DNA of 64,000 nt from Apilactobacillus quenuiae (GTDB lineage Bacteria > Bacillota > Bacilli > Lactobacillales > Lactobacillaceae). A program made the translations under genes and the position numbers. Positions within the stretch are counted from its first letter, which is position 1; every line of letters begins with the position of its first letter. This document shows, one piece after another, positions 9,399 through 62,872 of the stretch. The DNA lies in assembly GCF_002994005.1 (NCBI RefSeq), contig NZ_POSN01000003.1, forward strand, positions 96,446 through 160,445, in the 5' to 3' direction. The notes under the pieces were generated by a model that was not told where the DNA came from, made no database searches, and was given only the letters and a program-made list of their open reading frames with translations.

Positions 9399-10541
9399 TT
9401 AAATTTGTTTAAAAATATTCTTAACTTGTTTTCTGTTTTTATTGTTGTAATCATATATTACATTAATAAGAACACGTTCAAATGAATTTATATTGGGGAA
9501 TTGTTCCCTTTTTTTAATTTGACGTTTTAATTTTTTATTAAAGCTCTCAATCATATTATTACTATAAATACTTCTTCTTATTGAAGATGGAAACAAAAGC
9601 CAATTTAAAAGATCTTCATGTTCATTAAGAATAGAACCTATTTTTTTATATTTATAAGACCAATCATCTACAATCTTTTCAAGAAGGTTTTTGCCATTAT
9701 TATAGCTATCAATACTATATATTTTATTGAAATCATTAATTATTAATTTTCTGTCTTTTCTTGATACTATTTTTAAAATTGATCTAGAAGTATGTATCAA
9801 GCATTTCTGATGAAGAGCATTAGTAAAATTTTTCTTAATAACTTTAGATAATCCATTTAGCCCATCTGTAACAAATAAAATAACATTAGATAATCCTCTA
9901 GACCTTAAGCTATTTAAAAATTTATCCCAAATATCTGAAGATTCTTTGTAATAAGTATAATAACCAAGTACTTCTCTATGACCCATAGAATTAACCCCAA
10001 TTGCAAGATAAACTGTTTCTTTTTGAACTCTCTTTCTTCTAACTTTAATATATGTTGCATCTAGATATACAACAACATAATTATCATTAAAAAGACGATT
10101 TTTAAAAGAAAATACTTTCTTATTAAAAACTTTATTTATATTTGATATGGTCTGTGGTGTATAATTTTTTCTATAAATTTGCCTAATTTCTTCAGAAATT
10201 TCACTAGTACTCATGCCTTTTTTATAAAGACTTGTAATAATATTATCAAAATCTAAAGTTCTTCTTTTATAAGCATGAATTACTTTTGATTGAAACAATC
10301 CTCTTCTATCTCTAGGTATAGTGAGATTAAGAACACCATATCGTGTAACTAATTTTCGTTTATAAGATCCGTTTCTATAGTTTTTTAATTCACTACGATT
10401 ATATTTCTCATACCCTAAAAAATGATTCAATTCATGTTTCATATATTCATTAATATTTTCTTCTAATGTTTTTCTAAGGCTTTCTCTCACATCAATTTCT
10501 TTATCAAAATATTTAATTACGTTATAACTTGAGTTATCCAA
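9399..10541 (-). CDS. IS256-family (mutator-type) transposase
   Basis: A 380-aa DDE transposase. It carries the N-terminal YRNGSYKRKLVTRYGVLNLTIPRDR block typical of IS256, then the catalytic residues in order: D in VVVYLDATYIKVRR, D in ILFVTDGLNG, and E in SNNMIESFNKKLKRQIKKR. Start is TTG with AAAGG upstream. Length and all three acidic residues appear intact, so the element may be active. It catalyses cut-and-paste or circle-forming transposition of its own element. Confidence 0.92.
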   Translation of the reverse strand: MDNSSYNVIKYFDKEIDVRESLRKTLEENINEYMKHELNHFLGYEKYNRSELKNYRNGSYKRKLVTRYGVLNLTIPRDRRGLFQSKVIHAYKRRTLDFDNIITSLYKKGMSTSEISEEIRQIYRKNYTPQTISNINKVFNKKVFSFKNRLFNDNYVVVYLDATYIKVRRKRVQKETVYLAIGVNSMGHREVLGYYTYYKESSDIWDKFLNSLRSRGLSNVILFVTDGLNGLSKVIKKNFTNALHQKCLIHTSRSILKIVSRKDRKLIINDFNKIYSIDSYNNGKNLLEKIVDDWSYKYKKIGSILNEHEDLLNWLLFPSSIRRSIYSNNMIESFNKKLKRQIKKREQFPNINSFERVLINVIYDYNNKNRKQVKNIFKQI

Positions 10542-10617
10542 TGAATAAACATACCTTTCTTAAATAAAAGTTCACATCTTTGCTATTTTATTTTAGGAGG
10601 GTATGGTTTTCAATCAC

Positions 10618-10635
10618 ATATTATCTATTTACACA
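10618..10635 (-). repeat. right inverted repeat core of the IS
   Basis: The reverse complement of the left core at 9364-9381, perfect over 18 bp. It lies upstream of the transposase start. Confidence 0.85.
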
Positions 10636-10807
10636 ATTTTATTTAAACACCCATATATCCTAATACTTACATATGTATTTATATTTCTTTGAAAAACTAA
10701 GATACATTCCGATATCTCGTCACAAAATATACAAAGAATAAATTTGTGTTCCCGTATAGCATTTATACATTAAGCATATAGACTAATTACAAAAAATATA
10801 AAGTAAG

Positions 10808-10850
10808 AAAAAAGCCAATCAACTATTATTAGTAGCTGATTGGCTTTTTA
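10808..10850. terminator. bidirectional rho-independent terminator
   Basis: AGCCAATCA (10813-10821) pairs with TGATTGGCT (10837-10845), flanked by A-run and T-run on both sides. It isolates the IS region from the gene at 10956. The 160 bp between the IS end and this hairpin show no further structure. Confidence 0.85.
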
Positions 10851-10902
10851 TTGTCTGGTTATGATAGTGATGATTATGTATTAATATTTGTATTTAGTTT
10901 AT

Positions 10903-10941
10903 AAAAAGAGAGTAGTTCATTTATAAAACTACTCTTAAAAA
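10903..10941 (-). terminator. terminator of the zinc-ribbon-like gene
   Basis: AGAGTAGTT (10909-10917) pairs with AACTACTCT (10927-10935). Read on the - strand the stem is followed by CTTTTTAT. It lies directly behind the stop codon of the gene at 10956. Confidence 0.8.
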
Positions 10942-10955
10942 ATTATTTATAAATA

Positions 10956-11828
10956 TTACCATTTTGGAATGTAAAAAGTCCTTGCAGAAGAAAAGAACTC
11001 TTTATTTAAATTATATGATTTGTGTTTCTTATTATAAATAACATCTCCAGCTGCAAAAATTAATTCTGGATACTTTTTCTTAGATAATTGTTCTAGTTGT
11101 TTTCCCAGAGAAGTCCTTGATAAACTCTTATCTTCAGCATTAATAAATGTGACAAGTCTACTACCATTTTCATCAGACTTAGCAGAACTTATTTTATAAA
11201 ATGTAGGATATTTATCCACAAAAGCTACAAATTTAAAATAATAAAATCTACTTTCTGTCAATTTAAAATTATCATCAAGTTCTTTTATTAATTCTTCAAC
11301 TTTTCTCTGTCCATCTTTACCATTAGCATTATTTCTTATATCATCATATTCAAAATGAACAGGTACAATATAATCCTTTCGAATAGATCCAAAATGAATT
11401 CTGTCCAATAAAGTCTGCATAGAAGATATATGGGTTTTATTAGATTTATTTTTTATATTTTTTGTCCCATTACTTTTTGTTATCTTACGTTTTGATTTAC
11501 CTTTTTTAATAGTCCTAGATGTAAGAACTATATTGTCCTTTGGAATTAATGAGGACATTTTTTTAATTCCATTTATTTTATTATTATTATGATTTTTAGA
11601 TAATTGTTCTTCTAATACTGATAGACATTCTTTAATATGTGGACTATTATGGTGACTTTCAGTAAAATGATATAAATTATTTTTAGGAGAAGTGTACAAA
11701 GTTAAAGGTATATCACATTTACTATCCAAGCATTTATAGTTATATTTATTTTCTGGATAATATAATTCATAAGCAGTATTTGCATCAACTTCCTCATTAT
11801 TCTCAGTATTAATTGCTCTTTGAACCAT
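10956..11828 (-). CDS. hypothetical protein with N-terminal zinc-ribbon-like motif
   Basis: A 290-aa protein of unknown function. The ATG at 11828 is chosen because AAAGGAG lies 9 nt upstream; the frame is open further up. The N-terminus holds YKCLDSKCDIPLTLY ... YHFTESHHNSPHIKEC (about 25-70), a Cys/His pattern resembling the zinc-ribbon head of CoiA-like competence proteins. A basic Lys/Asn-rich linker follows, and then a C-terminal globular part (VPVHFEYDDIRN ... SLGKQLEQLSKKKYPELIFAAGD) I do not recognise. It is flanked by terminators and is probably monocistronic. A link to competence or nucleic-acid binding is speculative. Confidence 0.6.
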   Translation of the reverse strand: MVQRAINTENNEEVDANTAYELYYPENKYNYKCLDSKCDIPLTLYTSPKNNLYHFTESHHNSPHIKECLSVLEEQLSKNHNNNKINGIKKMSSLIPKDNIVLTSRTIKKGKSKRKITKSNGTKNIKNKSNKTHISSMQTLLDRIHFGSIRKDYIVPVHFEYDDIRNNANGKDGQRKVEELIKELDDNFKLTESRFYYFKFVAFVDKYPTFYKISSAKSDENGSRLVTFINAEDKSLSRTSLGKQLEQLSKKKYPELIFAAGDVIYNKKHKSYNLNKEFFSSARTFYIPKW

Positions 11829-61416: not shown

Positions 61417-61627
61417 GAATCATTCCCGCGCATGCGGGATAAACGGTACTAGATCGCTGTAAATACTCATTAACTCAGAATCACTCCCGCGCATGCGGGA
61501 TATACAGACTGCTCTTGGACCACTGAGAAATGAAATTAGAATCACTCCCGCGCATGCGGGATATACTTAGTGGTAATAACTCCAGACAAATTGGCACAAG
61601 AATCACTCCCGCGCATGCGGGATATAC
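61417..61627 (-). CRISPR. CRISPR mini-array, type I-E-like repeats, 4 repeats and 3 spacers
   Basis: Repeats of 28 nt at 61417-61444, 61478-61505, 61539-61566 and 61600-61627. Three are identical (core CTCCCGCGCATGCGGGAT, stem CCCGC/GCGGG). The one at 61417 has two substitutions, which marks the distal end. Spacers are exactly 33 nt each. Read on the - strand the repeat is GTATATCCCGCATGCGCGGG followed by AGTGATTC, close to the Firmicutes I-E type with a GTGATxC handle. That direction puts the leader at the AT-rich sequence above 61628. No cas gene is in the window. Confidence 0.92.
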
Positions 61628-61775: not shown

Positions 61776-61804
61776 TTTACACCCCACTCAAAAACCGCTA
61801 TAAT
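61776..61804 (+). promoter_or_regulatory. promoter of the repA leader (sense)
   Basis: TTTACA (61776-61781), 17-bp spacer, TATAAT (61799-61804). Transcription would start near 61811, about 210 nt before the repA start codon, and pass through the antisense RNA region and the attenuator. Confidence 0.75.
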
Positions 61805-61830
61805 TATAAGCATACAAAAATAAAACATAG

Positions 61831-61917
61831 AAAAAGAGCGTTGATCGACAATTATTGACAGTAATTATCGACCAGCTAACAGAGTAATCGCACTTACTTG
61901 TTAACCTTTAACGCTCC
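61831..61917 (-). ncRNA. antisense RNA to the repA leader (countertranscribed RNA)
   Basis: On the - strand a near-consensus promoter (61952-61924) would start an RNA at about 61917. The RNA begins GAGCGTT (61916-61910) and ends AACGCTC (61842-61836) followed by TTTTT, so the closing stem doubles as a terminator. Inside are two further hairpins: AACAAGTAA..TTACTCTGTT and GGTCGATAATTA..TAATTGTCGATC. The result is a compact three-way junction of about 87 nt, fully complementary to the repA leader. This matches countertranscribed RNAs that set copy number in Gram-positive plasmids. Expression is predicted, not shown. Confidence 0.75.
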
Positions 61918-61923
61918 TTAGTT

Positions 61924-61952
61924 ATTATATAAGAGCTGAGGAGTAGTTGCAA
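61924..61952 (-). promoter_or_regulatory. promoter of the antisense RNA
   Basis: TTGCAA (61952-61947), 17-bp spacer, TATAAT (61929-61924) on the - strand, 7 nt before the predicted RNA start. Confidence 0.8.
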
Positions 61953-61970
61953 TATATCTAATACATATAT

Positions 61971-62004
61971 GAGGGGACAAGTTTATTACTTGTGCCCTCT
62001 TTTT
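61971..62004 (+). terminator. attenuator in the repA leader
   Basis: GAGGGGACAAGT (61971-61982) pairs with ACTTGTGCCCTC (61988-61999) with one mismatch and a 5-nt loop, then TTTTTCT. It lies 20 bp before the repA start codon and downstream of the antisense target, the order used in antisense-controlled attenuation. Confidence 0.85.
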
Positions 62005-62023
62005 CTATCCCAAAGGATGGATA

Positions 62024-62872
62024 ATGATGAAAAAATTTATTAAATTTGATGTCGAATTGCGCAAAGATGAACGTTTAAACAATGATACCCGTTTAGCTTA
62101 TGCTTACTTATATGATCGAATGAATTCTTCAATTCAACGTCGTGAATTTTTTGATCAGAAGGTAAATGCCTACTACGTTATTTATACGGTGGAAGAAATG
62201 ATTAAAGATTTAGGCGTTAGTCGCAATACCGTAATTAATGTTTATAAGAAGTTAGCTACTTGTGGCTACATCATTAAAAAGAAAGTCTTTAATGGTGCTA
62301 CTAGATTCTTTTTACCTCATTTTCATGACGATAGTTTACATTCTAAACCCGTGAAAGTTGCAAATGACAACTCTAATCAAACTAACTTTAAACAAAATAC
62401 ATCTAAGACAGCTGTTACAGCTATTCAACAACAAAATAGAACTGTAAAAATTAGTGAATTTGATTTAATGCAAAATGTAGTTGATGGTTTAAAATCCAAA
62501 GCCGCCTTTGAATCTGATTTAATTAATACCTTAGTGAAATATTCTGAAAATGCTAGTTGCCTGTATAACTACGCTCAAATAATCTTTAAAACTAAAAAAG
62601 CCTCGCTTAATCGTTTGATTAAACGAGGCTACTGTAAAGCAACAAACGCTTTACGTTTTGAAACGAATTATTATATGCAAAGTGATTTAGTAAAGGTCAT
62701 GCTCAACTTAATTATTCAAACACGCACTAATCATAAAATTTATAATAAAGATGCTTATATTGCGAAATCACTATATAAGTTTTTTGATGATGCCGTTTTA
62801 GATTATCATGATCGAATAAATATGGATAAAGTTACCAATTTTAACATCCCTATCCGCAAATTAGACGAATAA
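62024..62872 (+). CDS. repA: RepA_N-family replication initiator
   Basis: A 282-aa protein with AAAGG 7 nt before ATG. The N-terminal domain (KFIKFDVELRKDERLNNDTRLAYAYLYDRMNSS, then VIYTVEEMIKDLGVSRNTVINVYKKLATCGYI) is the RepA_N winged-helix domain that binds origin iterons. A linker follows to about 140, and a C-terminal domain of the host-specific kind. Such proteins start theta replication of large low-GC Gram-positive plasmids, with the origin inside the gene. No parA/parB-type genes are visible to the right, but the window ends soon. Control by antisense RNA and attenuation is predicted from the leader. Confidence 0.9.
   Translation: MMKKFIKFDVELRKDERLNNDTRLAYAYLYDRMNSSIQRREFFDQKVNAYYVIYTVEEMIKDLGVSRNTVINVYKKLATCGYIIKKKVFNGATRFFLPHFHDDSLHSKPVKVANDNSNQTNFKQNTSKTAVTAIQQQNRTVKISEFDLMQNVVDGLKSKAAFESDLINTLVKYSENASCLYNYAQIIFKTKKASLNRLIKRGYCKATNALRFETNYYMQSDLVKVMLNLIIQTRTNHKIYNKDAYIAKSLYKFFDDAVLDYHDRINMDKVTNFNIPIRKLDE
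62599..62630 (-). repeat. long inverted repeat inside repA, terminator-like on - strand
   Basis: AGCCTCG-c-TTAATC-GTTT-GATTAA-a-CGAGGCT: 13 of 14 arm pairs. Read on the - strand it is followed by TTTTTT, so it would terminate transcripts entering repA from the gene at 62874. In + direction it has no T-run. It may also be part of the internal origin. Confidence 0.7.

Follow-up and report, generated by a model that had tools for sequence, protein, structure and literature searches.

Antisense control of RepA_N replication initiators is known from the staphylococcal plasmids pSK41, pSK1 and pSA564, in which antisense RNAs are produced from the repA leaders (PMC8129170, PMC5703833). For pSA564, the antisense RNA provided in trans blocks replication, and ON and OFF structures of the leader have been proposed (PMC8129170). 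The OFF hairpin of pSA564 is also a putative terminator (PMC8129170, PMC5703833), and the system has been put forward as possibly universal for the RepA_N family (PMC8129170). Outside staphylococci, a 2017 review describes antisense systems as apparently absent from RepA_N plasmids. Small antisense RNAs are, however, described for the lactococcal theta plasmid pCI305 (PMC12470161), so antisense control of theta plasmids from lactic acid bacteria is, as such, in print.

The locus described here lies in a window from Apilactobacillus quenuiae, i.e. the whole 64,000-nt stretch of DNA that was analyzed, which represents positions 96446-160445 of a 353-kb contig carrying tRNAs and dnaA. A sequence-only reading of this DNA had claimed a sense promoter, an antisense promoter, an 87-nt antisense RNA, a hairpin and repA in the repA leader, and each of these elements is present where it had been placed. 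Two predicted elements, a pre-emptor (antiterminator) and a hairpin at the ribosome site, are additions to that anatomy. Taken together, the locus is probably an antisense-controlled RepA_N gene, a former replicon settled in the chromosome, in which both RepA and the switch are kept by selection. The features are as follows.

61776-61804, + strand: predicted sense (repA mRNA) promoter, TTTACA-17-TATAAT, with an expected start near 61811
61831-61917, − strand: predicted antisense RNA (ctRNA) of ~87 nt, a three-way junction that has a closing stem followed by a U-run (fold, covariation, RNA model R1)
61855-61861: putative recognition loop A, sense TTGACAG (pairwise difference of 0.395 per site in seven chromosomal copies)
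61887-61894: putative recognition loop B, sense ATCGCACT (pairwise difference of 0.387 per site)
61896-61907, + strand: predicted pre-emptor ACUUGUUAACCU, within the ctRNA target (nascent folds; own versus permuted pairs)
61908-61949, + strand: predicted bridging hairpin, uniting the pre-emptor with the terminator 5′ arm (nascent structures ending at 61985 and 61990)
61924-61952, − strand (read 61952-61924): predicted ctRNA promoter, TTGCAA-17-TATAAT (shuffles; conservation in Apilactobacillus leaders)
61971-62004, + strand: predicted rho-independent terminator (attenuator), −18.4 kcal/mol, found in 23 of 23 leaders
62004-62021, + strand: predicted small hairpin UCUAUCC/GGAUGGA over the repA Shine-Dalgarno sequence (folds)
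62024-62872, + strand: repA, RepA_N plus Bac_RepA_C initiator, 282 amino acids (domain matches; dN/dS)

The minus strand of 61831-61917 has a minimum free energy of −32.2 kcal/mol (z −5.8), a stability reached by 0 of 200 shuffles; its fold is a three-way junction in which GAGCGUU/AACGCUC forms the closing stem, with UUUUU after it. The z value of the sense leader fold is −6.25. Covariation was assessed in a set of 23 leaders, 18 from Apilactobacillus and five from Lentilactobacillus, Companilactobacillus and Nicoliella plasmids, with duplicates counted once (L001/L005/L071, all equivalent to the window; L002 = L006; L003 = L011; L004 = L008). When these leaders were aligned, 18 of the 32 pairs in the window fold had changed on both sides, compared with 6.9 in shuffled alignments and 6 to 13 pairs in a slid-partner control. 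A second alignment (A3; 38 rows, 34 distinct sequences) was fitted to the model and so leans toward it; here, 23 of 30 pairs had changes on both sides, as opposed to 13.6 when shuffled. A3 was used in place of A2, which contained opposite-strand and weak matches, and excludes L087 (score equal to L061), while L076 and L082 are in neither set. RNAalifold recovered the junction from A3, with both-side changes in 20 of 22 pairs. In the 34 sequences, the closing (third) stem was paired in 97.4% of cells and five of its seven pairs had changed on both sides; the weakest helix was arm B, which was paired in 82.7% of cells and in which one pair fails in 18 sequences and another in 19. Read on the antisense strand, the closing stem is followed by four or more consecutive T residues in each of the 38 rows of A3. 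In the window, only two tRNAs matched Rfam families, and in a further search none of the 12 matches at E up to 10 reached a gathering score. Covariation in the junction is strong and no Rfam family is matched; the suggestion that the three-way-junction form is distinctive is supported.

The ctRNA is present at 18 of the 21 RepA loci of Apilactobacillus, the three without it being L018, L023/L028 and L026; scanning of 51 sources with R1 left 12 without a match (L018, L023, L026, L048-L056). Among 397 Lactobacillaceae genomes, R1 matched 23, which belong to 6 of the 40 genera sampled. An order-wide search under stricter filters gave matches in 4 of 395 genomes, a sample of unstated family share, and all four were Lactobacillaceae. 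At 20 of 23 loci outside Apilactobacillus, a RepA_N-like ORF on the other strand starts 74-213 nt downstream, and the three remaining loci lie near contig ends, with 130, 135 and 467 nt of DNA left. Given that five of these 23 loci were found through RepA, the fairer figure is that for loci found by the RNA model, 15 of 18 of which have a RepA_N-like ORF next to them on the other strand, several of the 18 being repeats or near-repeats of training sequences.

Promoter-like matches in this AT-rich stretch are not above chance (12 found, 20.2 expected), and the case consequently rests on related leaders. Of the six other chromosomal-type leaders, five have TTTACA-17-TATACT as their best match, with the distance (24-26 nt) unchanged, and the sixth (L003) has a different best sense-promoter match. 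A first promoter count awarded a bonus to 17-nt spacers and was repeated without it. Scored in this way, the ctRNA promoter of the window was equaled by 3 of 200 shuffles, and a 17-nt spacer was present in 21 of 23 leaders overall. A near-consensus antisense promoter with a 17-nt spacer was found in all 18 Apilactobacillus leaders, and in none of them did more than 14 of 200 shuffles match it. For the five leaders from other genera, the corresponding numbers were 3, 22, 46, 66 and 68 of 200; since 22-68 shuffles equal the antisense promoter in four of the five, most of these are not above chance. The promoter lies 7 nt from the RNA core in the seven chromosomal-type leaders and 13 to 91 nt from it in the other 16, so that most of the latter antisense RNAs would be longer. 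The expectation that homologous leaders conserve the closing stem, the promoters and the terminator is upheld within the genus for the closing stem, the antisense promoter and the terminator, but not for the sense promoter, the position of which is conserved only in chromosomal-type leaders.

The repA terminator consists of GAGGGGACAAGU-UUAUU-ACUUGUGCCCUC followed by TTTTT. It was not listed by a simple terminator scan, probably because of one G-G mismatch. A terminator of the kind claimed before repA stands in all 23 leaders, the window included, and 0 of 20 shuffles of the downstream DNA were as strong in each. In folds of the growing transcript, the 5′ arm of the terminator (61971-61982) is predicted to pair first with ACUUGUU..CCU in the ctRNA target (61896-61907), with the hairpin at 61908-61949 between them. 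With 4 nt of the 3′ arm emerged, the free leader keeps the 5′ arm in the target with P of at least 0.6 in 19 of 23 leaders, the exceptions being L002, L003, L004 and L010. Pairing of pre-emptors with their own terminator arms gave −278.8 kcal/mol, compared with −237.2 kcal/mol (sd 6.8) for permuted partners (0 of 5000, kinship of the leaders being ignored). At the level of single leaders, only some pre-emptors beat their own shuffles, which is clearly not the case for those of L009, L010, L059 and L060.

With 7 nt of the 3′ arm emerged, blocking of the 3′ half of the target, which includes the pre-emptor, raised terminator pairing in 20 of 23 leaders, left that of L010 equal and lowered that of L002 and L003. 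Blocking of the 5′ half raised it in 3 of 23 leaders, by at most 0.05. The predicted switch in the window itself is weak: terminator pairing rises from 0.33 in the free leader to 0.45 when the 3′ half is blocked, and to 0.35 when the block covers the whole target. In full-length leaders, blocking of the target raised the terminator probability in 22 of 23 cases and left it equal in one. Given that this probability is already 0.5 to 0.98 in free full-length leaders (for the window, 0.83, rising to 0.91 on blocking), any control would need to be kinetic. The seven chromosomal copies have a weaker antiterminator than the remaining 16 leaders (exploratory Mann-Whitney test, p 0.0055). A ribosome-site stem is predicted in all 18 Apilactobacillus leaders, where stems vary (L020 has another stem) and 2 to 46 of 300 shuffles are as good; in the five leaders from other genera, 0 to 239 of 300 are as good. 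The proposed architecture of an antisense RNA combined with an attenuator is supported by covariation and by the antisense promoter and terminator in related leaders.

The following scheme is proposed. The antisense RNA would be made constitutively and would control the RepA_N initiator gene, the mRNA of which would start near 61811. In a short transcript, the pre-emptor would pair with the 5′ arm of the terminator, the bridging hairpin would hold both, and polymerase would pass. The ctRNA, extending from 61917 to 61831, would make its first, kissing contact with the leader through one or both variable loops. Pairing would then bury the pre-emptor, allowing the terminator to form and transcription to end near 62004, while the ribosome-site hairpin would lower translation of transcripts that read through. 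An antisense/attenuator mechanism of this kind is likely.

Domain matches indicate that RepA belongs to the RepA_N replication initiator family: the N-terminal domain scores 35.6 bits against RepA_N (PF06970, cut-off 30) and the C-terminal domain 42.7 bits against Bac_RepA_C (PF18008, cut-off 25). Relatives were found in 6 of 16 Apilactobacillus genomes (21 loci, 24 search rows), the other ten having none at E 1e-5. RepA relatives occur in 57 plasmid records, all less than 60% identical; no DNA-level relative of leader plus repA was found in plasmids, and no RepA relative in phages. RepA at the chromosomal site is under purifying selection: for the six intact chromosomal copies, dN/dS was 0.08-0.20 (15 pairs; A. 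timberlakei, with its broken repA, excluded). Synonymous differences between chromosomal copies amount to 0.37-0.61, compared with leader distances of 0.04-0.14 (the leader figures including A. timberlakei). At the orthologous site in A. timberlakei (L002:5001-5861, same as L006), repA has one in-frame TAA, as seen in one assembly only, and the leader is 96% identical to that of the window over 260 nt. A strong terminator hairpin also lies on the minus strand inside the repA coding sequence (window 62599-62630, −21.3 kcal/mol; −19.2 kcal/mol in A. timberlakei), and is weaker or was not found at the equivalent place in other repA copies.

No tandem periodicity above codon shuffles was detected in 23 repA genes (L002, first piece only), a test that lacks power because the plasmid-borne repA genes included gave nothing either. 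Neither Rep-box-like repeats nor a consistent GC-skew flip was found at repA. A second chromosomal origin at repA was also considered; the lack of a consistent skew flip and of repeats, the repeat test being equally blank for plasmid-borne repA, argues against it.

The repA locus is chromosomal. Its contig also carries dnaA (position 241425), 83 kb from repA, and the same neighbors flank repA on both sides in four Apilactobacillus species, namely that of the window, A. apisilvae (in which the ortholog is on a 1.47-Mb contig), A. micheneri and A. timberlakei. The distance from repA to dnaA is 72 to 83 kb in each. A. apisilvae has two further chromosomal copies, which flank dnaA at distances of 21 and 26 kb, and A. 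micheneri has one, on the same contig. No ParA-type motif was found within 40 to 60 kb around any of the seven chromosomal copies. The sequence-only reading had taken the locus for a plasmid replicon, but the extrachromosomal location of a RepA_N plasmid is lacking: synteny at the orthologous site in four species and the presence of dnaA and tRNAs on the same 353-kb contig rule out a plasmid, and the lack of a ParA-type motif nearby also counts against one. The genome of the window has a second RepA_N gene with the same kind of ctRNA on a 51-kb contig, where a parA-like ORF lies 0.7 kb from repA. Elsewhere, three repA_N genes are found on a 159-kb contig (G009:C10, L102-L104), every one of them accompanied by a separate ctRNA whose loops differ from those of the others, and a 3564-amino acid open frame lies directly downstream of the extra chromosomal repA of A. 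micheneri (L041, G007:C3:50212-60906).

Variation within the ctRNA target is concentrated in the loops. The seven chromosomal copies differ by 0.395 (loop A) and 0.387 (loop B) per site, compared with 0.012 in the remainder; the corresponding values for the 11 other Apilactobacillus leaders are 0.387, 0.442 and 0.129. The loops thus vary at about the synonymous rate, and diversifying selection is not proved by this variation alone. In each of the 18 Apilactobacillus leaders, G or C occupies two or more of the three central positions of loop A, and yet these positions are variable, which in AT-rich DNA suggests constrained variation of a recognition site. Other-type leaders share five of the seven chromosomal loop A heptamers, and the 51-kb contig, from the same genome, carries one of the five. 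Identical loops A were shared by 2 of 21 pairs within genomes and 10 of 132 pairs between genomes, which is no different; for loop B, the counts were 1 of 21 and 4 of 132. The two loops were jointly identical in none of 153 pairs. Avoidance of shared loops by co-resident copies is therefore unsupported by the pair counts for loop A and loop B.

A short CRISPR-like array lies directly upstream of repA (window 61417-61627), with three 28-nt repeats (GAATCACTCCCGCGCATGCGGGATATAC), a degenerate fourth and 33-nt spacers. Read opposite to repA, the repeat resembles a type I-E repeat. No Cas1 match was found in the genome of the window, and A. timberlakei has one such repeat at the equivalent place. 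No phage matched the array, the last repeat of which had three weak matches in plasmids (E 0.6), and its spacers gave only self-matches and chance 13-mers among the loci compared. In all three genus genomes having both, Cas1 lies ∼3.4 to 7.4 kb from repA_N, at four places (L106:2-9680 and 9693-11205; L038:11750-19165; L104; L105). It is accompanied by Cas3, Cse1 and a 61-nt-period array in G014:C9, by Cas9 in G002 and by a Cas9-like protein in G009:C10; 66-nt-period arrays occur in G002, G009:C10 and G014:C7, and L105:12416-17062 had no Pfam match. The last spacer of the Cas9-associated array of A. apisilvae (L038:19100-19129) contains AATCACTCCCGCGACTGCG, which is close to the repeat that neighbors repA both in the window and in A. 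timberlakei; this spacer may be aimed at another CRISPR array.

The persistence of the locus could be explained in other ways. One such explanation is a relic: an integrated plasmid would be in decay, and its switch and RepA, no longer of any importance, would persist by inertia. Decay would accommodate the stop codon in A. timberlakei repA, the missing ParA-type motif around chromosomal copies (the 51-kb contig having one close to repA), the missing Rep boxes and skew flip, the weaker antiterminator of chromosomal copies and the ten genus genomes without a RepA relative. However, inertia would not be expected to hold the antisense target outside the loops to a difference of 0.012 per site while repA synonymous sites differ by 0.37-0.61, nor to yield the low dN/dS of the six intact copies, and a relic is therefore an unlikely explanation. 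The minus-strand structure could instead be a by-product of the sense fold, the hairpin before repA being the sole regulator of the leader through constitutive low read-through. Both arms do fold on the sense strand as well, as complementary strands share pairs, and the preference of R1 for the antisense strand arises by construction and is not counted here. By contrast, the near-consensus antisense promoter spaced at 17 nt, which every Apilactobacillus leader has (18 of 18), and the T-run after the closing stem on the antisense strand in 38 of 38 rows would have no place in such an account, which is very improbable.

Alternatively, the chromosomal ctRNA could be a trans-acting incompatibility device that excludes plasmids by silencing the repA of incoming RepA_N plasmids with matching loops. 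The antisense RNA of pSA564 acting in trans both blocks replication and cures the plasmid (PMC8129170). The A. timberlakei leader is intact although its repA is broken, and the variable but G/C-retaining center of loop A and the recurrence of chromosomal heptamers in other-type leaders also fit. Against this stand the equal loop A identity within and between genomes, the failure of loops A and B ever to coincide in one pair, and the purifying selection on intact RepA copies, which would be superfluous, so that this reading appears rather unlikely. Distinctly unlikely, too, is a domesticated control region kept as a trans incompatibility barrier to RepA_N plasmids and phage-plasmids alike, its loops diversifying like immune specificities within a frozen frame and the CRISPR remnants at the locus belonging to the same picture. 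The most likely reading is a domesticated RepA_N locus whose switch still works. Its ancestor was most likely a RepA_N replicon that became established in the chromosome before the divergence of the four Apilactobacillus species. The amount of RepA made from the chromosome is most likely still limited by the switch, which may also act in trans on matching plasmids.

The three-way-junction ctRNA with its pre-emptor attenuator provides a testable RNA family for RepA_N elements of Lactobacillaceae, and the RNA model could help to type lactobacillar RepA_N plasmids by incompatibility group. The locus also raises the question of why a chromosome would retain a plasmid initiator and a copy-number switch whose stems are frozen while its loops vary. 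An action of the chromosomal ctRNA in trans, if it occurs, could influence the set of plasmids that these bee symbionts can maintain.

Within Apilactobacillus, the RepA relatives of A. kunkeei plasmids and phage-plasmids (L049-L056) are 26-34% identical. Their leaders have TTGATT-17-TATAAT or TACAAT on the minus strand in all seven scored (L054 excluded; 3 to 55 of 200 shuffles as good) and also bear a hairpin over the ribosome site. By contrast, these loci and one A. apisilvae plasmid (L048-L056) are without the three-way junction and have no R1 match.

The application of such control to a RepA_N initiator, as read from the sequence alone, has precedents in pSK41, pSK1 and pSA564 (PMC8129170, PMC5703833) and is not the new point. 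No description of antisense control of RepA_N outside staphylococci was found in the abstracts and passages searched (among them PMC8129170, PMC5703833, PMC3765258, PMC9648514 and PMC12470161). Within the reach of these searches, the novelty lies in the RNA architecture and in the genera, and most of all in the copy fixed in the chromosome.

The Apilactobacillus locus shares with pSK41, pSK1 and pSA564 the initiator domain family and a short antisense RNA opposite the repA leader, of similar size (∼83 nt in pSK41 and <100 nt in pSA564 (PMC8129170, PMC5703833); ∼87 nt here). As in pSK41, this RNA, predicted from structure, promoter and covariation, is located ahead of the translation start. A further common feature is a leader with mutually exclusive ON and OFF forms, which are predictions here. 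However, the RNAs of pSK41 and pSA564 comprise two stem-loops, with a single-stranded spacer in pSK41, whereas the Apilactobacillus arms are closed by a third stem; by its fold, the ctRNA is therefore not a member of the pSK41 RNA type. The terminator and the ribosome-site hairpin are also separate, and the locus is chromosomal, in Lactobacillaceae hosts. In pT181 RNAI/repC, a pre-emptor likewise pairs with the 5′ arm of a terminator, which is freed by antisense binding (PMC5703833), although the Rep_trans rolling-circle initiator is an unrelated protein. A convergent antisense promoter in the leader and an induced terminator before the initiator gene are shared with pIP501 RNAIII/repR (PMC5703833), which differs in its PriCT_1 initiator and CopR repressor. 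As in the pT181/pIP501 type, the predicted pre-emptor is complementary to the 5′ arm of the terminator and lies inside the antisense target, albeit weakly in some chromosomal copies (L003, L004). In its predicted form, the control of this chromosomal RepA_N gene is built like that of pT181, pIP501 and pSA564.
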